DNA from: Vreelandella azerica
GTDB taxonomy: Bacteria > Pseudomonadota > Gammaproteobacteria > Pseudomonadales > Halomonadaceae
Length of the DNA: 64,000 nt
Direction of reading: 5' to 3'
Assembly: GCF_013112225.1 (NCBI RefSeq)
Contig: NZ_JABFHI010000004.1
Coordinates: forward strand, 186,001 to 250,000
A program made the position numbers and the translations under genes. Positions 1,054 to 55,243 of the stretch are shown here, piece by piece (positions within the stretch are counted from its first letter, which is position 1; each line of letters starts with the position of its first letter). A model generated the notes under the pieces. The model searched no databases, had not been told where the DNA came from, and saw nothing but the letters and a program-made list of their open reading frames with translations.

Positions 1054-1626
1054 TTACTCCACCCCCAATGCTTTCACCACGGCATCCACGGGTTCCGAGT
1101 AGAAGCTGGTCTGGAACTTGGTGAACAGCTCACCGGGAATGGTCGGGATATCCACGGCGCTGCTCATCGGCAGGGTGACGCGCTTGCCACTTCATCAAAG
1201 GCTACCAGATCCCACATGCCGACCAGGCCAATCCGCCGAGAACTCATGTTGTAAAAGAGATTGGCCACCGTGGTCTGTCCGCCAGAAACCAGAATGCTGT
1301 TGGGCGAGCATTCCTTGTAAATATGGCTCTTACCGGTACCCCTCGGGCCCAGTTCGCAGACGTTATAGTTATTCTCGACAAAAGGAATCATCCGCGCCAG
1401 CAGGTGCCATTGTACGTTTTCGTCCAGCTCAGCGGGTTCCATGCCAATCGAGCGGATCAACATCTCGCGCCACTGGGCCGTGGTAAAGCCGCGCCGCCCT
1501 TCAAACAGCTCATCCATGTTCATGTGAGGCATCTGGATCGGCTTGAGCAGGCTGACGCCAAACGGTGATGCGGATTGGCCTTCCTCATGGAAATAACTCA
1601 GGGTAGCAATCACCCAGATGCCACCG
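1054..1626 (-). pseudogene. brxL: brxL remnant (BREX Lon-like AAA+ protein) with large internal deletion
   Basis: The 5' part (minus strand from about 1626) gives a BrxL central segment: SPFGVSLLKPIQMP, DELFEGRRGFTTAQWREML, then ELGPRGTGKSHIYKE (Walker A) and GLVGMWDLVAFDEVA. At about 1190 it jumps to the extreme BrxL C-terminus, ending DIPTIPGELFTKFQTSFYS...VVKALGVE and a TAA at 1054-1056. Intact BrxL is roughly 680 residues; here the N-terminal domain, most of the AAA+ core after Walker B and the Lon protease-like domain are missing. The surviving blocks are close to consensus, so the deletions look recent. The frame changes by one at the internal junction. It cannot make a working BrxL. 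Confidence 0.88.
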
Positions 1627-2252
1627 AACGTTTCTTGGTCTTGAAGGCAGTGATGGGTTTATCGCCCAGCACCGTCTTATCGGTGGCGTCCAGGGCGCTG
1701 CGCTGAAACAGAAAGCCGTGGTCCGCCGTTACCAGTACGGTACTGGTGTTCAGGTGCATCAGGACCTTGCGGGTCAGCTGATCCAGCTCTTCAATGGCAT
1801 CCTCCACGGCAGCGAAGGTCTCGCTTTCGGTGCTGGCGGAATCACCCCGAGCATCCACCACGTTGTGGTAGACATACATCAGCTGAACGCCCTTGATCTT
1901 CTCGCGACCCTGCTCCAGCGACCAGCACGCTATCACTACCCGGCTGATAGGCCAGTTCACGATGAGAAAAGAGCGCCGCCATGCCCAGGGTGGTGTAGCT
2001 GGGCACCACCCCCAGCTGGCTGCTCAGGCTGGCCTGACTGTAACGCTTGGTATTGATGCGCTCGCCCAGCTCCAGCTGCAGCTTCACCCCCAGGGTGGAT
2101 CTGCCACCCATATTGATGACCTGCACCCCCTCCAGACCCAAGGTATCCAGGGTTTCAACAAAGTGGCCGGGGGTGTCGCACCAGAACACAATGCGGTGGC
2201 CATCCTGGAAAAACGCCTTGCGCAAGCCCTGCTGAAGTTGTTCGAGCTGCAT
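1627..2252 (-). pseudogene. pglZ: pglZ remnant (BREX-1 alkaline-phosphatase-like protein), several internal deletions
   Basis: Starts at an ATG at 2252 behind a good ribosome site (AAGGAGG, 5 nt spacing): MQLEQLQQGLRKAFF, then FWCDTPGHFVETLDTLGLEGVQ, the PglZ N-terminus. After about residue 60 it jumps to a mid-protein block (SSQLGVVPSYTTLGMAALF). A further deletion and frame change leads to YVYHNVVDARGDSASTE and VLVTADHGFLFQ, the metal-binding core block of PglZ. It then runs into brxL sequence with no intergenic space. Intact PglZ is about 850 residues; roughly 200 codons remain here. The order pglZ then brxL matches the 3' end of type 1 BREX operons. brxA, brxB, brxC and pglX are absent from the window. 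Confidence 0.88.
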
Positions 2253-2803: not shown

Positions 2804-2973
2804 GTTGGCTCTCTGGTTTGTGACTGTAAAATTTTTTAAATGCGGTATGTTGAGGGTGCTGTTTCTGTTTCGTCGATCCTAAAAAAACGGGTTTCAATGG
2901 CAATTTTCTACAAACTCGTTAGGTGTTACCTAAAAAATAACGAATTTTCGCGGCTGCTCTTTGGCTAATATTA

Positions 2974-4048
2974 AGTAGTTATGCAAAAGTTATCGTGTTA
3001 TCTACGCCATAACCGTTACAGACGCCTTTCACCGCCTGACAGAGCCTATCGAAAGAGCTATAGGCCGTCAGTGGTAACCAGCGATATTTGATTTCACGCC
3101 AAAGAATTTCGATCAGATTCAACTCAGGCGAGTATGGCGACAGATAAATCAGGTGAATACGGTGGGTCATCCAATCAATGATTTTCCGTCGAAATGCCTT
3201 GGAGTGATGCATTTTGGCATTGTCTAGCACAACAACAGCGAAGGCATCAGGATCTTTCTGTGCTGCAAATTGGTCAAACGCCTCTATAACCGTTTCACTA
3301 TTCACCGTGTCCATTGTCATATGATGAAAGAACATCCCTTTTCTGGATAAAAAACCTAATACATTCAATCTCTTGCTATGAGAGTAAGCAGTGACTTCCC
3401 AGGGTTGCCCTATTGGGCTCCATGCATAAGGCAGTGATGAAGACTGCGAAAATCCAGTTTCATCAAAGAAGTAAAGATCACAGGTGCCGCTGTCTTCCCA
3501 TTCTTTCAATGCGTTGATCAGGCCTTGCGTATTGCGGAAATCTGTCTCGTCACGCCGTGCCTTCAGCGAGTAGCGAACACGTTTACAACTGTTACCGTTT
3601 TTTTAGAGCACGACGTAGGGTATCTCGACTGACCACTTTCCCGGTTTTTCTTGAAACTTGGCATGCAGCACCGGCAACTGATGAGGATGATCTTCAACAA
3701 GCTGCTGCAATAACGCTATCTCGCCATCATTGAGAAGGTTTGGCCGCCCGTCGCGGGGTTTGTCTTGCAGACCGTCAATACCGTCTGCTTCCCACTGGGA
3801 TAGCCATGTCGATACCGTATCGCGCTTGACCCCGAGAATGTCACGAATTTGATTGATCGTGTGCCCTTTATGGCTCAATAAGATGGCATGAGCGCGACGG
3901 CGTAAGGCTCGCTTTTCACCGTACTGATAAGCGTTATTTACAATGCGCTGTTGGTCTGGTGTCAAAGAGATGAAGCGTAACGGCTTGGACATGATGTATC
4001 TCCTCGTTGAGTTACATCTTTATACCCTATAATTATTGCATAGGCACT
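2974..4048 (-). mobile_element. IS630-family insertion sequence with TIRs and TA target duplication
   Basis: About 1.08 kb bounded by imperfect terminal inverted repeats of about 24 bp. The left end (2972 on) reads TAAGTAGTTATGCAAAAGTT and the right end (complement from 4050) reads TAAGTGCCTATGCAATAATT. The flanking TA dinucleotides at 2972-2973 and 4049-4050 match the TA target duplication of the IS630/Tc1-mariner superfamily. It carries one transposase gene on the minus strand. It interrupts tnsC on its right side. The sequence to its left is not the rest of tnsC, so an adjacent deletion followed or accompanied the insertion. Confidence 0.88.
2979..3992 (-). CDS. IS630-family transposase (frame broken at two homopolymers)
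   Basis: The N-terminal part (3992 to about 3640) has a Homeodomain-like HTH: HTINQIRDILGVKRDTVSTWLSQW. The catalytic part shows LYFFDETGF, VVVLDNAKMHHSKAF and SPELNLIEILWREIK, the D-D-E residues of the superfamily. As given, the frame shifts near 3637-3639 and again at the A7 run 3598-3604, leaving a TAA at 3603. Adding one base at the first and two at the second restores VSRDTLRRALKKNGNS and a 338-residue protein, the usual IS630 length. The same type of missing base recurs through the window, so the gene is probably intact in the organism. Confidence 0.85.
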
Positions 4049-4266
4049 TAGCTTGGAAATTCTGAAGCAAACTCAGTAATCAATTTGCTTTTACCACTGC
4101 CTGTATCTCCCACGAGCAGCATGCATTGTTGTTCACCACCCAATAGCTGGTTGTTTTTTAAACGATGCAAAGAGTTCATTGCTTTAATTAAAGCCGCATG
4201 TTTAACAAAACAATTTCTAAATTTAACCAGTTGAGAGCGACTATTTTCAGGAAGCATAGCATTCAT
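4048..4266 (-). pseudogene. tnsC: tnsC-like AAA+ transposition regulator, truncated by IS630
   Basis: Only the first 72 codons remain. The Walker A loop LLVGDTGSGKSKLI is present at about residues 51-64, preceded by a helical segment like that of TnsC/TniB. The reading frame then enters the IS630 inverted repeat, whose TAA stops it at 4048-4050. The ATG at 4266 overlaps the tnsB stop by four bases (ATGA), the usual coupling in tnsABC operons. Walker B, the sensor motifs and the TniQ-contact regions are lost. TnsC selects targets and activates the TnsAB transposase, so the element should no longer transpose by itself. Confidence 0.85.
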
Positions 4267-6170
4267 TCGTAAGGCTCCACATCATCAGCAATATTGTGCC
4301 AATCATCAACATGTTCAAAAATTTTTGAATCTGTCAAGCCGACTTCTGAAGAGTCACACATAGCATTATCTCTACTTTTCAAGTCACGATGCACACTTTC
4401 AAAAGTCGTATCACCATCAGTATCCACGCCTATGAAAGCAGCAACGCTTTTCATTCCTTTTAGGTTACTTTTCTTCTTGGCTAAAGCATTTTCCTTTATA
4501 TCATCCATTCTCTCGCTGAGCTTCATATTTGCAAGTGCAAGCCCCTCATAATCGGTATTAATTTCTATATAATTATTCAACAACCTTCTCATGACTTGGT
4601 ACTGGAAAATAGAGACGCCCTCTAACTGAAACTCCTGGCTAGTAGCATTAACCTTAATATACTTCTCCAATTCAGGTAAGAATACATACACAAAAGAAAC
4701 ATCAGACGGGTCTCGCTTAACACAAAGCTTATGCTTTTTCTGACCAGGAGGCGGGGGATGATTTTTTCTGAACTCTACTAGCATTTCGCTGCTATAGCTT
4801 ATATGATCTACCTCTATCCCAATTGGTCGTAAATCGCGATAGACGGTAGGAAAACTTTCGATTTTAAATCTTTGTTTTTCAGCTCCTTGGTAAACAACTG
4901 GTGGAAAATCTTGACACCCAATCTGCCAAGATAAAGCAGGTATATTGGTTCTACGTTTATTTGGCTGCTGATTATAAATATCTACAACCCATATATGAAG
5001 CAGATGTAAAAATCTGTCAAATGGTAATAGCGCATCTTTCTCAGGGTCATAACCTTCTAAATCTTTTGCACTTGAGAAAGTTTTTCCCGGTATTTGATGA
5101 ATAAACTCTGTATTGTAGGTGTTAAATATTCTCTCGACTAAAGGTTTTTTCCATGGCTGTCCAACTGGATTGTACTCAACGCTCATTCCTATTGAGGCAG
5201 AAAATCTCTCAAGATCTTTCGACCAAAACTCTGCGCCGTTATCAACAACAAGTGTTTCAATACGCCCTTGACATGGCCAATCTTTTTCGATATCGGGGTA
5301 CTTTTCCAACAAGTCTTTTTTGTCCAAACACGCATTTAATACTGCACACCTGACAGAATTATAGCTCGGCCCTCTAAAGCTTAAATAAAAACCTACGATA
5401 CATTTACTAAATGTATCAACCAAAACAGTTATAAATGGCCTTCCAATAGGGACATTCAAGTTATCATCAAGCAAGATCAAATCAAGAGCGGTATGATCGA
5501 TTTCAACACGCTCCATAACCCTAGTAGATTTTGTAAAGCTATTGATCAATCGATACTTTTTATCTGCATATCGTTTACCATAACGCTTCAAATCACAAAT
5601 ATAAGGTGGAAGCTTTTTAACCCTATCGTAAAAGGCACTTTGCCCAACAGCTACAAACTTATCATCTGGATTTTCATTGTTATGGACTATTATTAAATCC
5701 TTGTAAAATTGATAAGTGGTCGCAACAGACCCCCTCACTCTTGTAAGATATTTCTTTTCGATTGCGTCCCAAAAAAGTATCTTTTGAAAAAGATTCAAAA
5801 TCACAAAAATTATTTTTTATAGCTCTCACATCAACCAAGGAAAGCAAATCTTTACCGGCACGATACTTTGCATTCCATCTAGCTACGCTTTGCCAACCAG
5901 GCTTTTTATCTATAACACCTTCATTATACAATTCATAGATAATTGGCTCTATATTCTTCTTCGTCCAGCCTCCATTAAGCTTTTTATTGACCAATTTTAT
6001 TACTTTATACCTGAACAAAGCTTTATCGGCGCACTCCTCATCAAGATCATCTATTGTTATGAATGCCACATCCTCAATTTCATCACGGCTTTTCTTATTC
6101 TCTGTATGAGAGAAATCTATGCCTGCTAAAGACTCATCAAAAAAGGATCTTCCAACATATGCCACCTCAT
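4263..6170 (-). CDS. tnsB: TnsB-like DDE transposase of a Tn7-like element (two homopolymer frame breaks)
   Basis: The rve-type catalytic core shows VEIDHTALDLILLDD (first Asp), TLVVDNGAEFWS (second Asp) and GQPWKKPLVERIFNTYNTEF (catalytic Glu), followed by a beta-barrel region and a charged C-terminal tail such as TnsB uses to contact TnsC. The N-terminal part (GWTKKNIEPIIYELYNEGVI, GWQSVARWNAKY) holds the HTH DNA-binding domains. As printed, the frame breaks at the A6 run 5771-5776 (two bases short) and the A6 run 6139-6144 (one short). With these restored the gene is 636 residues from the ATG at 6170, which overlaps the tnsA stop by ATGA. TnsB binds the end repeats and joins the 3' ends to target. 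It is AT-rich compared with flanking chromosome. Confidence 0.86.
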
Positions 6171-6788
6171 GCCCAAAGAAGCAAATCGTCACCAATTTCT
6201 TTTTCCAATATATTGGCCTTTAATTTCCCAGAGGCTATTAACGAAACCAGTGAGCTAATAACTCTAGGACGGAAACTGATTTCATATAGAGCACAAATTT
6301 CATGCACGAAAATGGGGAGTGTGTTTTTACAAGGTCATAAACACTATCATACAACTCACAATGGCTTTGAAAACCAGCGTAACGATGTAGCAGCTTAAAA
6401 TTATTCAAGACTGGATATTTTCTGATTTGAAGCTCAGTTACTAAGCTCAGCTCGAAACCTAACTGGCATGCTGCTTCTTTTTTTGCCTGGAATTTTTGAA
6501 CAAATTCTGGATGGAGGGTTTTACTATGGGGTTTGACCTCAATAAAGGCTACTTTTTGATTATTATTTATTATCTTAAAATCAGGAGTATAAGGGTTAGT
6601 TTTCCCGTGAATTGAGTAAGTAAAGCCTATAGGCTGGGCAATGAAAGACTTAACTTGGGGGAGTATTCAAAATGGTAGCAGGCATCAAATTCTAGGGAAG
6701 ACTCTACAGTGTGAGCAGAAGCAGTTTTGAAGCTAGCAAATTTGTAGAGGTTCTTGACACGGGAATGACGGAGCTTACGCCTGTACAT
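6167..6788 (-). CDS. tnsA: TnsA-like endonuclease of a Tn7-like element (two homopolymer frame breaks)
   Basis: Translation from the ATG at 6788 gives ESSLEFDACYHFEYSP (catalytic Glu), then TNPYTPDFKI (Asp) and KVAFIEVKPHSK (E-x-K), the restriction-enzyme-like active site of TnsA. The C-terminal half (ALYEISFRPRVISSLVSLIA, GKLKANILEKEIGDDLLLWA) resembles the winged-helix portion that contacts TnsC. The frame is lost at the G5 run 6657-6661 and the A4 run 6309-6312; one base added at each gives a 207-residue protein. TnsA cuts the 5' ends so that the element moves by cut and paste. The identification is from these motifs plus operon position directly before tnsB. Confidence 0.8.
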
Positions 6789-6822
6789 GACAACACCCCA
6801 TTTCGTAGGTTTACTACAAAAA

Positions 6823-6896
6823 TAGGTTATGTCACGAGAAACCGCAAATTATGTCATTTTATCCGGAATTTATGTCAAAACAGACCGGAAACGACA
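6823..6896. repeat. Right end of the Tn7-like element with three TnsB-type binding repeats
   Basis: TTATGTCA occurs three times in the same orientation at 6827-6834, 6849-6856 and 6870-6877, a spacing of 22 and 21 bp, with partly conserved CCGGAA flanks. The element end is read as ACGACA at 6891-6896; on the complement this is a 5'-TGTCG terminus. Tn7-like ends carry such directly repeated TnsB sites of about 20-22 bp and start with TGT. The end lies 35 bp outside the tnsA start, the expected place for the right end. GAAAT (6897-6901) would be the 5-bp target duplication, but its partner at the left end cannot be found. Confidence 0.78.
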
Positions 6897-6902
6897 GAAA
6901 TG

Positions 6903-7013
6903 GAGGCGGCCCCAAAAGCCACATCCCGGCACACGCAGCCACCACTACCGTTGCTCCCTTCCGGGCCTGGCGGGGTTTGCAGTTTAGCGTTGCGGGAGGA
7001 CCTAAGGGGCCAC
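6903..7013 (-). ncRNA. ffs: 4.5S RNA, RNA component of the signal recognition particle
   Basis: The complement reads GGCCCCTTAGGTCCTCCCGC at the 5' side and holds the conserved domain IV hairpin (CAGGCCCGGAAGGGAGCA, with the GGAA loop and the asymmetric AGCA internal loop bound by Ffh). It closes with GTGTGCCGGGATGTGGC and GGGGCCGCC, which pairs with the 5' end. Length of about 111 nt matches the proteobacterial 4.5S RNA (114 nt in E. coli). It targets ribosome-nascent chains to the inner membrane with Ffh. The Tn7-like right end lies just beyond its 3' end. Confidence 0.9.
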
Positions 7014-7049: not shown

Positions 7050-7126
7050 TGGTGGCTACGCCCTGATTTGAACAGGGGACCCCATCATTATGAGTGATGT
7101 GCTCTAACCAGCTGAGCTACGTAGCC
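7050..7126 (-). tRNA. tRNA-Met (CAT), elongator, CCA encoded
   Basis: The complement folds as a standard 77-nt tRNA beginning GGCTACGTAGCTCAGCTGG. The anticodon loop is CTCATAA (anticodon CAT) on a CATCA/TGATG stem. The T-loop is TTCAAAT and the 3' end is GGCGTAGCCACCA. The first base pair is a normal G-C pair rather than the mismatch of initiator tRNA, and the 5' half matches the elongator Met family of E. coli. Confidence 0.95.
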
Positions 7127-51096: not shown

Positions 51097-52548
51097 TCAA
51101 GCCTCCTGGGCGTGGTTGGCATCGTTGGCAGGCAAGCTGCGTACATCCACAAAGTGGCCGGCAATCGCGGCAGCGGCGGCCATCGCCGGGCTGACCAGGT
51201 GCGTGCGGCCACCGTAGCCCTGACGACCTTCAAAGTTGCGGTTGGAGGTCGAGGCACAGTGCTCGCCTGCGCCCAGCTTGTCGGCATTCATCGCCAAGCA
51301 CATGGAGCAGCCCGGCTCGCGCCATTCAAAGCCTGCCTCGATAAAGATCTTGTCGAGGCCTTCTTCTTCCGCCTGACGCTTCACCAGGCCAGAACCCGGC
51401 ACCACCATGGCCAGCTGGATATTGCTGGCAACCTTCTTGCCCTTGGCCACCTTGGCGGCTTCACGCAGGTCTTCAATTCGCGAGTTGGTGCAGGAGCCAA
51501 TAAAGACTTTATCCAGCTGAATATCGGTGATTTTCTGGTTGGGCTGCAGGCCCATATATTCCAGAGCGCGTACATGGCTGCGTTTGATCGTTTCATCCAG
51601 AGCGGCTTCCGGGTCAGGCACCTGACCGGAAATGCCGGTCACCATCTCGGGGCTGGTGCCCCAGCTGACCTGCGGCTCAATCTCGTCGGCATCCAGCGTC
51701 ACGATCTTATCGAACTCGGCATCCGGGTCCGAGACCAGATTGCGCCAGTCGGCCACTGCTGCTTCCCACTGTTCAGCGGTGGGCGCGTAAGGACGGTTGC
51801 CAATGTAGTCAATGGTGGTTTCATCCACAGCAATCATGCCGACCCTTGCACCGGCTTCAATCGCCATGTTGCACACCGTCATGCGCCCTTCCATCGACAG
51901 CGACTCAATCGCACTGCCCGCAAATTCGATGGCATAGCCGGTGCCGCCCGCGGTGCCAATCTTGCCGATAATCGCCAGCACTACATCCTTGGCGGTCACG
52001 CCCAGGCCGAGTTCGCCTTCAACCCGCACCTGCATGTTTTTCATCTTCTGGGTCAGCAGGCACTGGGTCGCCAGCACGTGCTCGACTTCTGAGGTGCCAA
52101 TACCGTGGGCTAGCGCCCCAAAGGCACCGTGGGTAGCGGTGTGGGAATCGCCGCACACTACCGTCATACCTGGCAGCGTTGCGCCCTGCTCGGGGCCGAT
52201 GACGTGGACAATGCCCTGACGCGGGTCGTTGATGCCGAATTCGGTAATGCCGTACTCAAGGCAGTTATCGTCAAGAGTCTGCACCTGAATGAGGGACACT
52301 GGATCCTTGATGCCTTTATTGCCTTCGGCACGCTCGATCAAGGTCGTCGGAACGTTGTGATCCGCAGTCGCCAGGTTGGCATCCAGGCGCCAGGGCTTGC
52401 GCTTAGCCAGGCGCAGACCTTCAAAAGCCTGGGGCGAGGTGACTTCGTGGAGCATGTGGCGGTCGATGTAGATCAAGGCAGTACCGTCGTCACGCTGCTT
52501 GACCAGATGCTGATCCCACAGCTTGTCGTAAAGTGTTTTAGCTGACAT
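51097..52548 (-). CDS. leuC: 3-isopropylmalate dehydratase large subunit
   Basis: Aconitase-family isomerase converting 2- to 3-isopropylmalate. The start [16 protein letters not shown] at 52548 follows CGGGAGAGCAT. The [4Fe-4S] ligands are the Cys residues in [14 protein letters not shown] and [11 protein letters not shown]. Other family blocks are [19 protein letters not shown] (written here with the conserved Ser-His) and [17 protein letters not shown]. The 483-residue length is as expected. It is first in leuCDB and divergent from a LysR regulator. Confidence 0.95.
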
Positions 52549-52708
52549 ATGCTCTCCCGGGCCATGGCCCTGTGATTTTCCAGTGATGAGGTAACCCTGG
52601 ACGTGAACCTGACTGGGCGTGCTGCAGGGTAGTGAATGCAATGTTACCCCGCTCGCAGATAAAATCAATTCATGTTATTTATGGATTAGATTCCCAGCAG
52701 GAATACTA
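52549..52708. promoter_or_regulatory. Divergent leuC / LysR promoter region
   Basis: The 160-bp gap between the divergent leuC and LysR genes must hold both promoters. An AT-rich patch near 52660-52690 is the likeliest place for LysR binding (T-N11-A type), but I could not fix an operator. Confidence 0.5.
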
Positions 52709-53593
52709 ATGGACACTCAACATCTACAAGCCTTTTTGGCCGTAGCCGATACACAAAGTTTCTCCAAGGCCGCTGATCAGCTGTTTCTGACCCAACCCGC
52801 GGTCAGCAAACGTATCGCCATGCTGGAGCAGCAGCTCAATACCCGGCTGTTTGATCGCATCGGGCGGCGCATCGCCCTGACCGAAGCCGGTGAGCTGCTA
52901 TTGCCCCAGGCGCGCCATATCCTGCTCAGCGTGGAAGACAGCCGCCGTGCCCTGGCCAACCTGTCCGGCCAGGTCGGCGGACGTCTGACCATGGCCACCA
53001 GCCACCATATCGGCCTGCACCGCTTGCCGCCGATTCTCAAGGCCTATACCCAGCAACACCCTGAGGTGGATCTGGACTTGCGCTTTGTCGATTCCGAGCT
53101 TGCCTATCAGGGTGTGTTGAATGGCCATCTTGAGCTAGCGGTGGTCACCCTGGCGCCGCACCCGGTCGAGCAGCTCAGCGTCACCGAGCGCTGGCGCGAT
53201 CGCATGTGTTTTGTCAGTGCCCACGACCACCCACTGGCCAGGCAGGTCAGCCGCCCGGCCAAGCCATTGGCGCTTACCACGCTGTGCGAACACCCCTGCG
53301 TATTACCCGGCGCCCAGACCTTTACCCGCAGCCTGATAGAAGAGCGTTTCGCCCTTAAGGGGTTGGCGCTATCGGTGAGCATGTCGACCAATTACCTCGA
53401 AACCCTGAAGATGATGTGCAGCGTGGGGCTGGGCTGGAGCCTGCTGCCCGAAAGAATGCTGGATGAGGATCTGGTTGAACTACCCGTCGATACGCCGCCC
53501 TTTTACCGCCCGCTGGGCTACCTCACCCATAGCAACCGTACCCTTTCCAATGCCGCTCGCAAGATGATTGAGGCGCTAGAACAGGGCCGCTAG
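52709..53593 (+). CDS. LysR-family regulator, probable activator of leuCDB
   Basis: A 294-residue LysR protein. The HTH is FLAVADTQSFSKAADQLFLT and QPAVSKRIAMLEQQL (residues 9-44), followed by the periplasmic-binding-like effector domain (GGRLTMATSHHIGLHRLPPI, HPCVLPGAQTFTRSL, MMCSVGLGWSLLPERML). I chose the ATG at 52709 behind CAGGAATACTA; the upstream in-frame extension overlaps the leuC leader. Its divergent position beside leuC is the usual place of the leucine-pathway regulator, so it probably responds to a leucine-pathway intermediate. The target is an inference. Confidence 0.88.
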   Translation: MDTQHLQAFLAVADTQSFSKAADQLFLTQPAVSKRIAMLEQQLNTRLFDRIGRRIALTEAGELLLPQARHILLSVEDSRRALANLSGQVGGRLTMATSHHIGLHRLPPILKAYTQQHPEVDLDLRFVDSELAYQGVLNGHLELAVVTLAPHPVEQLSVTERWRDRMCFVSAHDHPLARQVSRPAKPLALTTLCEHPCVLPGAQTFTRSLIEERFALKGLALSVSMSTNYLETLKMMCSVGLGWSLLPERMLDEDLVELPVDTPPFYRPLGYLTHSNRTLSNAARKMIEALEQGR

Positions 53594-54066
53594 GCAGTCG
53601 GGTCAGTCTGGTAGCTATACACAATCGCTTCCTGCTTGCGCGGGCCCTGAATCGACCAGGCCACCCGGATCTGGGTACCTTCAATCGTGAGCGAGGCGGC
53701 ATACACATCCTGGCCGCATAGATGCGGGTCGACTTCCCGCCACTGCCCTGCCTCATCCGGGGCCATATCAAACAGCAACACCGGCTTATCCACACCAAAG
53801 CGCAAATGCTCCAGACGCAGCTGATGCCCTATTGCTGTCCAGCGGAAGGTGTTGGTGAAGGCAAACGCAGACGGATGCTCTGCGCTTTTGTGGTTCGGCT
53901 GCCAGTTGCCTGTTTCGTGAAATACCAGGCTGTTCTCCTGCGCTGCTGAGACCTTGACCTCCCCCTTGCCCACCCCTTCCCAGCCGGTACCTGCCTGACT
54001 TTGCGCGTTAAAATGCAGTACGCGCACACGGCGCAGACAGCTGAGCACCTCTTGAGAAGTTTGCAT
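53590..54066 (-). CDS. DUF6314-like protein, function unknown
   Basis: A 158-residue protein without signal peptide. It is a beta-rich lipocalin-like pattern: GWEGVGKGEVKVSA, LVFHETGNW, NTFRWTAIGHQLRLEHLRFG, then DPHLCGQDVYAASLTIEG and VAWSIQGPRKQEAIV. The H-x-C-x-x-D-x-Y and W-x-x-x-GPRK blocks match what I know of DUF6314 proteins. The biochemical function is not known. Its stop overlaps the end of the convergent LysR gene by 4 bp. Confidence 0.6.
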   Translation of the reverse strand: MQTSQEVLSCLRRVRVLHFNAQSQAGTGWEGVGKGEVKVSAAQENSLVFHETGNWQPNHKSAEHPSAFAFTNTFRWTAIGHQLRLEHLRFGVDKPVLLFDMAPDEAGQWREVDPHLCGQDVYAASLTIEGTQIRVAWSIQGPRKQEAIVYSYQTDPTA

Positions 54067-54166
54067 CTTTCTCTCCTTAACAACAGCGAGCCTGCAAAAT
54101 CGGGCTTGTCACTTTTATACAGTCGGTTAGGCTGAGGGTAAATTCACCCATAGAGGCGATTTTATC

Positions 54167-55243
54167 TTGGGTAACCTGCAGACACGCCTGGACGATACGT
54201 CTTCAACCATTCCTGCCATCGACCCGGTACACCTGTCACTGCTTGAGCAACACGGCCTGACGGCCACCGAGCTTGAACCACTGGGCATTGAAATCCGCGG
54301 CGCCGATGTGCGTTCAGCGCTGCCTGAGGCAGTGATCAAGGCGCTGGAAGTTGAAATGGCCCAGCGTGGCTTTATTGTCTTCAAGCACCAGACCGAGCTG
54401 TCCGCCAACGAACTGGTGGAAGCCAGCAAATGGTGGGGCGCCGGAGAAATCCACTCGACCCACGGCGTTCACCCCGCCACTCCGGATATGAACCGGGACA
54501 TCTTCCGCTGCTCCAACGATGACCGCTACGGCATTCTTGGCGTTGGCCCACAGTGGCACAACGACGGCAGCTTCGAGGCGGCGATTTTCTCCCACTCAGC
54601 CTATTATATGGCCCGCGCCCCAGAACACGGCGGCGGCACCCACTTTGCCCACCAGGGCGCCGCCTTTGATTCCCTGCCCGAAGAAAAGCAGGCTTACTGG
54701 GAACGCCTGGTATCGGTCAACTCCGCCTCCGGGGTCAGCCACCCTGTGGTGCATACTCACCCCATCTCCGGGCGCAAAAGCGTCTGGCTACACCTGGGCA
54801 TGACGGGGGCAGTGATTGAGCGCTTGCCAGAAGACGGCGTGCCCATTGAGGAGCTGCAGCGCCAGCCGGCGGATGTTGCCCAGATGCGCCTGCTCAATGC
54901 CGACGAACTCAAGCAGTTATTCAATGATTACAACGACCTGCTAAACGCCTCCTTCGACAAGGGCTACGGCATTCGTTACCACTACGACACCGGCGATCTG
55001 CTCTATGTGGATAACTGGGCGCTGGCCCACCGCGCAGCGCCAGAAGCGCATATGTCCGCTGAGCAGCAAGGCCTGCGCATCATGGATCGCGTCACGGTCA
55101 AGGCCAAACAGAATCTGGCGCCCCACTTCGGCCTGCCCCAACATATCAATCTTGCCGGGCCTCACCCCTTTAACCACGACGGCATATGGCAAGCCGGAGG
55201 GATCGGTTTTCGCTGGAAGGACGATATTCCAATGCAGAACTGA
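54167..55243 (+). CDS. TauD/TfdA-family Fe(II)/2-oxoglutarate dioxygenase
   Basis: A 358-residue enzyme with the metal triad HxD...H: QWHNDGSFEA supplies the first His and Asp (about residues 129-131), and NWALAHRAAPEAH supplies the distal His, followed by the 2-oxoglutarate-binding Arg in RIMDRVTV. TTG at 54167 is the first usable start. The length is greater than TauD (283). Substrates of such enzymes include taurine, aryloxyacids, carnitine precursors and alkyl sulfates; the substrate cannot be told. It stands alone between the DUF6314-like gene and the RND operon. Confidence 0.82.
   Translation: MGNLQTRLDDTSSTIPAIDPVHLSLLEQHGLTATELEPLGIEIRGADVRSALPEAVIKALEVEMAQRGFIVFKHQTELSANELVEASKWWGAGEIHSTHGVHPATPDMNRDIFRCSNDDRYGILGVGPQWHNDGSFEAAIFSHSAYYMARAPEHGGGTHFAHQGAAFDSLPEEKQAYWERLVSVNSASGVSHPVVHTHPISGRKSVWLHLGMTGAVIERLPEDGVPIEELQRQPADVAQMRLLNADELKQLFNDYNDLLNASFDKGYGIRYHYDTGDLLYVDNWALAHRAAPEAHMSAEQQGLRIMDRVTVKAKQNLAPHFGLPQHINLAGPHPFNHDGIWQAGGIGFRWKDDIPMQN

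Follow-up and report, generated by a model that had tools for sequence, protein, structure and literature searches.

The window analysed here, i.e., the whole stretch of 64,000 nucleotides of a Vreelandella chromosome taken from a draft assembly (20 contigs, 89.46% completeness), carries the remains of a Tn7-like transposon at the 3' end of ffs, the gene for the SRP RNA. With the proteins of an intact relative as tblastn queries, tnsA (6788-6170), tnsB (6147-4269) and the start of tnsC (4266-4051) were recovered. Going away from the 3' end of ffs, the right end, tnsA, tnsB and the tnsC start follow in this order, and these three genes lie on the minus strand. The features are given below from ffs outwards; G387 is a member of the genus with a complete element.

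7053-7126, minus strand: tRNA gene adjoining ffs
6910-7006, minus strand: ffs, the SRP RNA gene and attachment gene (Rfam RF00169, Bacteria_small_SRP, 69.9 bits)
6937-6968, minus strand: part of ffs to which the terminal guide of each relative's array corresponds, its presumed target, with CC at the PAM position (6969-6970 on the complement)
6897-6901, no strand: GAAAT, a candidate for one copy of a 5-bp target duplication, the second copy not being found
6892-6896, minus strand: right terminus of the transposon, TGTCG on the complement (CGACA on the plus strand)
6827-6877, minus strand: three TnsB-site-like repeats, TTATGTCA, with plus-strand starts at 6827, 6849 and 6870
6170-6788, minus strand: tnsA relic with two frame breaks (three frames), 87-98% identity by tblastn with G387 TnsA
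4263-6159, minus strand: tnsB relic with one frame break near 5790 (two frames), 80-88% to G387 TnsB by tblastn
4263-5804, minus strand: open reading frame of 513 aa in the tnsB relic
4048-4266, minus strand: 5' part of tnsC, 72 codons and then cut, 67% to residues 1-72 of G387 TnsC (TniB/AAA)
2971-4049, minus strand: IS630-type insertion at the tnsC break, ends approximate and set by eye (DDE_3 at 2979-3509, HTH at 3603-3992)
1622-2252, minus strand: pglZ relic with a large internal deletion (Pfam PglZ; tblastn to residues 1-64, 502-564 and 583-686 of G387 PglZ)
1057-1625, minus strand: brxL relic with an internal deletion (Pfam BrxL_ATPase, 1.5e-58; tblastn to residues 159-308 and 659-702 of G387 BrxL)
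877, no strand: start of the flank common with genome G401, where this point lies 1.75 kb outside the left end of the element

The TnsA of G387, to which the tnsA relic was compared, matches PF08722. The insertion that interrupts tnsC, which we take to be of the IS630 type, has imperfect terminal inverted repeats. No further tnsC is found to its left; approx. 700 bp of unassigned sequence are followed by the pglZ and brxL pieces and then by the flank. Between the insertion and the pglZ relic lies a minus-strand open reading frame of 88 aa (2537-2803) that matches no Pfam family and, at the DNA level, none of the relatives compared.

The right end beside ffs

The first-pass annotation of this DNA had described a Tn7-like remnant at ffs, and its parts, i.e., the damaged tnsA and tnsB, the tnsC start and a right end adjoining ffs, have all been found. 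The three copies of TTATGTCA also stand as described, at spacings of 22 and 21. At least three copies anywhere in the 64 kb were reached in 17 of 100 shuffles, so their number is not rare alone; the repeats are taken as real because the same repeats occur beside ffs in four genus-mates (L035, L053, L040, and L057). The TGTCG terminus is likewise present, whereas its reported distance of 6 bp from ffs depends on where the mature RNA ends, the gap to the end of the Rfam match being 13 bp. As for the ATGA overlaps between genes, the one joining tnsB and tnsC is there (4263-4266), and a tnsA-tnsB overlap (6167-6170) is only possible.

The proposal that this end is foreign to the site could be judged from relatives that lack the insertion. 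A 1,096-bp query covering ffs, the tRNA gene and a regulator was partly matched in 61 of 61 genus genomes, though not always in its ffs part, and 30 returned loci, the window's own included, were aligned on the ffs 3' end and sorted by eye. The end seen in the window recurs in the four loci named above; diverged ends with transposase genes behind them are found at L046, L061, and L063, and two further loci (L052 and L045) look degenerate. No such end is present in the remaining 20 loci, among them that of the close relative G384 (L044). In addition, a search of 82 genus genomes returned the end pattern GAAACGACA-N(0-4)-AATGGAGG in 13, the window genome being one of them, and the reversed control in none. 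All 13 sites adjoin an ffs match, which in G397 is only a partial second copy of the gene. Since 20 of the 30 loci lack the ffs-side end and the pattern occurs in 13 of the 82 genomes, the DNA as far as 6896 is foreign to the site; the first-pass annotation would have been refuted by empty-site genomes in which this DNA is native, and that is not what the loci show. The partial ffs copy of G397 (L134, G397:C1:783713-783733) is situated 7 kb from the whole ffs on the same contig.

The TGT-type terminus and the repeated candidate TnsB-type sites are those of a Tn7-like element, and the end adjoins ffs, one of the two attachment genes (ffs or rsmJ) of the I-F3b subgroup. It is confirmed that a Tn7-like remnant, no longer complete, is docked at ffs.

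Complete relatives, transposase placement and BREX genes

The element of G387 is complete at ffs and extends over 35.2 kb from right end to left end in the order tnsA, tnsB, tnsC, BREX operon, other cargo, tniQ, cas8/5, cas7, cas6, CRISPR array, Xre-type gene and left end. That of G406 is also complete at ffs (26.5 kb), with only a partial BREX. Strong TniQ matches were obtained in 9 of the 82 genus genomes (eight full length and one split, 65-100% identity), and a match of any strength in 22. The tniQ, cas8/5, cas7 and cas6 genes and an array are present in all nine relatives examined; for G413 and G394, in which ffs and the cas genes fall on different contigs, a position at ffs is only presumed. 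NCBIfam and Pfam models identify Cas7 as Csy3, Cas6 as Csy4, a Csy2-like stretch in Cas8/5, TniQ, TnsA and a TniB-type ATPase. The best PDB matches of the relatives' Cas7 and TniQ are chains of 7u5d, in which TniQ is bound to Cascade and which we take to be an I-F3b Cascade. Six of the nine elements were read at both ends, and all six have identical 5-bp flanks (TTTCT in G387, G406, G393, and G375; ATTTC in G369; ATTTA in G401); G413, G385, and G394 are outside this count, as the stretches read hold no left end.

Several of these elements have features of their own. In G369, tnsA and tnsB form one open frame of 835 aa, a natural TnsAB fusion (L072:541-3048), whereas they are separate genes in G387 and G406. 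A more diverged tnsABC, with a TnsB 45% identical to that of G387, is found at ffs in G394 (L078, G394:C27:1-8700), and the tniQ-cas genes of this strain, with an ffs-type guide, are on another contig. Between array and left end, L071:14565-15071 encodes an Xre/MbcA/ParS-type antitoxin-like protein, possibly the regulator of the element. Within the G393 element, positions 51930-54909 of the joined stretch give weak matches of TniQ-like (32%) and TnsB-like (27%) character, both on the strand opposite, so that the cargo may itself harbour another, different Tn7-like element.

The TnsB of the window is closest in the PDB to PseTnsAB (1.5e-113), presumably an I-F3 protein, followed by the TnsB of Tn6677 (4.9e-71) and, far behind, that of Tn7 (1.8e-26); the relatives' TnsB gives the same order. 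In a tree of 79 named TnsB loci plus the window and G387, the window pairs with Vreelandella titanicae BH1 (93% identity, SH-aLRT 100) inside a Vreelandella-Halomonas group of eight rows, all with ffs upstream. The tree was built by a quick method, with a midpoint root for drawing only, and came with a warning that some long branches, including L145 and L146, join one another, so that only close grouping is used. An ffs match accompanies 51 of the 79 named loci, in 50 of them approx. 0.75-1.0 kb before tnsB and in L178 approx. 1.9 kb before it. Mapped on the tree, the ffs label requires six changes, a number as low as which was not reached in any of 500 shuffles; attachment at ffs is clustered, though not confined to one clade.

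The known systems can be ranked against the locus in the same way. Elements of type I-F3b at ffs (the Tn6900/AsCAST branch) share with the window the attachment gene and the tnsA-tnsB-tnsC order, and with the relatives the tniQ-cas8/5-cas7-cas6 block, the atypical last guide and the Xre-type gene near the left end (G387, G406, and G401). The window differs from them in that no more than the right end, the tnsC start and a damaged tnsA and tnsB are left, and the genus differs in a guide-to-end distance of 40-44 bp. Tn7 itself (TnsABC+D at glmS) resembles the window's element in its ends, in its heteromeric TnsA-TnsB transposase and in its insertion beside a conserved gene; however, it is guided by a protein, TnsD, and the similarity of its TnsB is far lower. 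The I-F3a element Tn6677 (VchCAST) has a homologous TnsB, to which that of the window is nonetheless less similar than to PseTnsAB. The accessible part of PMC11406308 gives guaC or yciA as the attachment sites of I-F3a elements.

The BREX genes require separate treatment. Full-length brxC, pglX, pglZ and brxL (tblastn) lie behind tnsC in G387, G369, G393, and G385, the first three of which were read at both ends, and some of these genes are present in the stretches read of G406, G375, G413, and V. rituensis (L143). PADLOC names all six BREX genes in G387, with pglZ taken from G369; the pglX protein scores slightly higher against a type IIG restriction-methylase model than against PglX. From the BREX type 1 set (brxA-brxB-brxC-pglX-pglZ-brxL), the window retains pieces of pglZ and brxL only, and a 22-residue bit of pglX lies approx. 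740-805 bp to its left.

The debris at 1057-2252 might be decayed cargo of the same transposon instead of a separate BREX copy, an explanation that we find rather doubtful. Its order and strand agree with those of the four relatives that carry the four genes behind tnsC, and element-borne BREX evidently varies, since G375 (taken as V. titanicae BH1), the nearest relative by TnsB, has only a partial brxL, 70-72% identical to that of G387. However, the tnsABC genes of the window show 92-97% DNA identity to those of G393, whereas the debris reaches only 75-86%. Moreover, its largest piece is as close to the BREX of G432 and G376, two genomes with no TniQ match (83%), as to the element-borne copies (81-84%), and BREX bits are also found in the G401 flank outside the left end of the element. 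The evidence leans towards a separate copy.

BREX matches are found elsewhere at this site as well: in G382 they lie approx. 14 kb from ffs on the insertion side (C97:568-5370, with ffs at C97:19196), with no right end at ffs, and perhaps represent an older relic devoid of ends. In the literature, BREX is listed in 40 Tn7-like transposons in the portion of PMC8649781 at hand, which does not state whether these are of type I-F. A survey of titles and abstract openings yielded no paper on I-F3 elements paired with BREX, and the part of PMC12452197 that was available, on I-F3 elements of Shewanella, mentions neither BREX nor ffs. Literature listings with Halomonas contained no paper on such elements in that genus, which is weak evidence.

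The guide matching ffs

All nine arrays end in nearly the same guide, which is held in an atypical unit of 54 or 56 bp, as compared with 60 bp for the others in the arrays measured. This guide agrees with the ffs of the window at 22 of 28 nt in eight arrays and at 21 of 28 in G394. None of 25 other spacers from these arrays exceeds 18 of 28, and only 1 of 200 shuffled guides attained 22 anywhere in the window. The match of guide and ffs is therefore well above chance, though imperfect. Of the six mismatches in the 28 nt, three (6, 12, and 24) fall at positions divisible by six, and every sixth base is flipped out in Cascade according to an excerpt of PMC12774636. Some of the mismatches are PAM-distal, and the same excerpt describes such mismatches as poorly tolerated in VpCAST, a I-F3 system. 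By our own count, the distance from protospacer to element end is 40 bp for a 32-nt protospacer or 44 bp for a 28-nt guide; the excerpt gives an insertion distance of 49 bp for VpCAST.

These data bear on how the element reached ffs. The first-pass annotation had proposed an ffs-specific TniQ, since deleted, which amounts to placement by a dedicated ffs-binding TniQ/TnsD protein. Such att-site elements do exist, and the sections of PMC11406308 at hand include a branch of I-F3 whose TniQ targets parE. All that came after tnsC is missing from the relic, and a second TniQ-like frame, of approx. 367 aa, is weakly matched (E 8e-7 to 1e-3) in other genomes of the genus and inside the G393 element. 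Nonetheless, it is highly improbable that a protein of this kind placed the element: where relatives share this end and transposase, they encode an I-F Cascade and a TniQ that best matches the Cascade-bound chains, and the last guide matches ffs in nine of nine arrays. Furthermore, the G387 and G406 genomes have a single TniQ match each, beside the cas genes, in a search that a very different TniQ could escape.

The expectation that the locus would extend the group of ffs-attached elements did not hold, as ffs is already a published I-F3b site. In the part of PMC11406308 available, ffs and rsmJ are the guide-recognised sites of I-F3b elements, for which atypical guides, mismatch tolerance and Xre regulators are described, and according to the corresponding part of PMC12774636, 94% of events go to four loci, of which ffs is one. 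The host genus may be a new entry among ffs-attached hosts.

With tniQ, the cas genes, the array and the left end all missing from the relic, its class is deduced from its transposase and right end and from the relatives. The tnsA-tnsB-tnsC genes are those of the I-F3 lineage, though damaged and with only 72 codons of tnsC, and the TnsB groups with elements that carry tniQ and cas genes; the relic is filed as a truncated derivative of a type I-F3 CRISPR-associated transposon, not as a working member. More specifically, we consider it very probable (approx. 0.92) that what remains in this Vreelandella (Halomonas-group) chromosome is the right end of a Tn7-like, CRISPR-associated transposon of type I-F3b, from a family apparently guided to ffs.

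Loss of the targeting half and history of the site

No tniQ, cas gene or array was found inside the relic. Searches of the window's assembly returned neither Cas7 nor TniQ, the latter with a relative's TniQ as query, which was matched in genus-mates, and the array repeat gave a single repeat-like site with three mismatches on another contig. A left end, or second TGTCG end, had been anticipated to the left of the window; none is present in the 80 kb to the left, in the window itself or elsewhere in the assembly. The assembly searches for Cas7 and the left end had no positive control of their own, although the same sequences were found in relatives (tblastn and blastn). Nothing at this locus yields a date, and the description of the relic as a datable fossil had to be dropped.

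The flank common with G401 starts at 877, a point 1.75 kb outside the left end in G401, and the loss thus seems to have begun in tnsC and to have extended beyond the left end. The left flanks of the window genome and of G401 contain no further element end, and the outer flank of G401 resembles sequence beside ffs in G384. Around ffs, the window genome and G401 share 95% DNA identity. This identity does not decide between one insertion common to both and separate ones: the junction bases differ (GAAAT vs. TAAAT), and G384 is near the window genome yet empty at ffs.

It could be argued that the frame breaks are errors of a draft, incomplete assembly and that the element is intact in the real strain, but this is most improbable, as an insertion sequence interrupts tnsC and the DNA on its far side is unrelated, and no full-length TniQ, Cas7, array or left end was found in the assembly.

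The complete relatives suggest how such an element would act. Cas8/5-Cas7-Cas6 and TniQ would carry the crRNA from the last, atypical repeat-spacer unit; the guide would pair with ffs, and TniQ would recruit TnsC. TnsA-TnsB would then insert the element, with its right end leading, immediately beyond the ffs 3' end; the RNA gene would stay whole and 5 bp would be duplicated. The data show the relic, its junction, relatives that lack it and complete relatives with guides and 5-bp repeats; we infer that this copy was placed by an ffs guide, the molecular steps being modelled on published work on other I-F3 elements. Later decay here comprised the frame breaks in tnsA and tnsB, the IS630-type insertion in tnsC, and what seems to be the loss of everything from tnsC through tniQ, cas genes, array and left end into the flank.

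The site may also have been used more than once. In G369, the left end of the first element (53067 of L072+L073+L087+L088 joined, in L087) and ATTTC are followed by a second TGTCG right-end-like sequence and a diverged tnsA fragment, so that two elements apparently lie in tandem behind one ffs. Tentatively, and at somewhat less than even odds, the DNA past ffs in Vreelandella might be seen as a serial dock, at which one I-F3b lineage inserts repeatedly between ffs and older copies. Several transposons of the lineage would carry a whole BREX phage-defence operon next to tnsC, and decaying remains of the older copies, as in the window and G369, would pile up as a graveyard of defence genes. On this view, two events or more have left traces in the window, with the source of the BREX pieces older than the transposon.

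The relic illustrates one death route of a guide-directed transposon, in which the targeting half is lost and the right end stays at the attachment gene. It also points to Vreelandella relatives that pair the genes of CRISPR-guided transposition with a full BREX operon. In itself, it is an ordinary fossil of a known kind of transposon that its relatives resolve well; what is fresh is the lineage that carries BREX, together with the tandem copy of G369.
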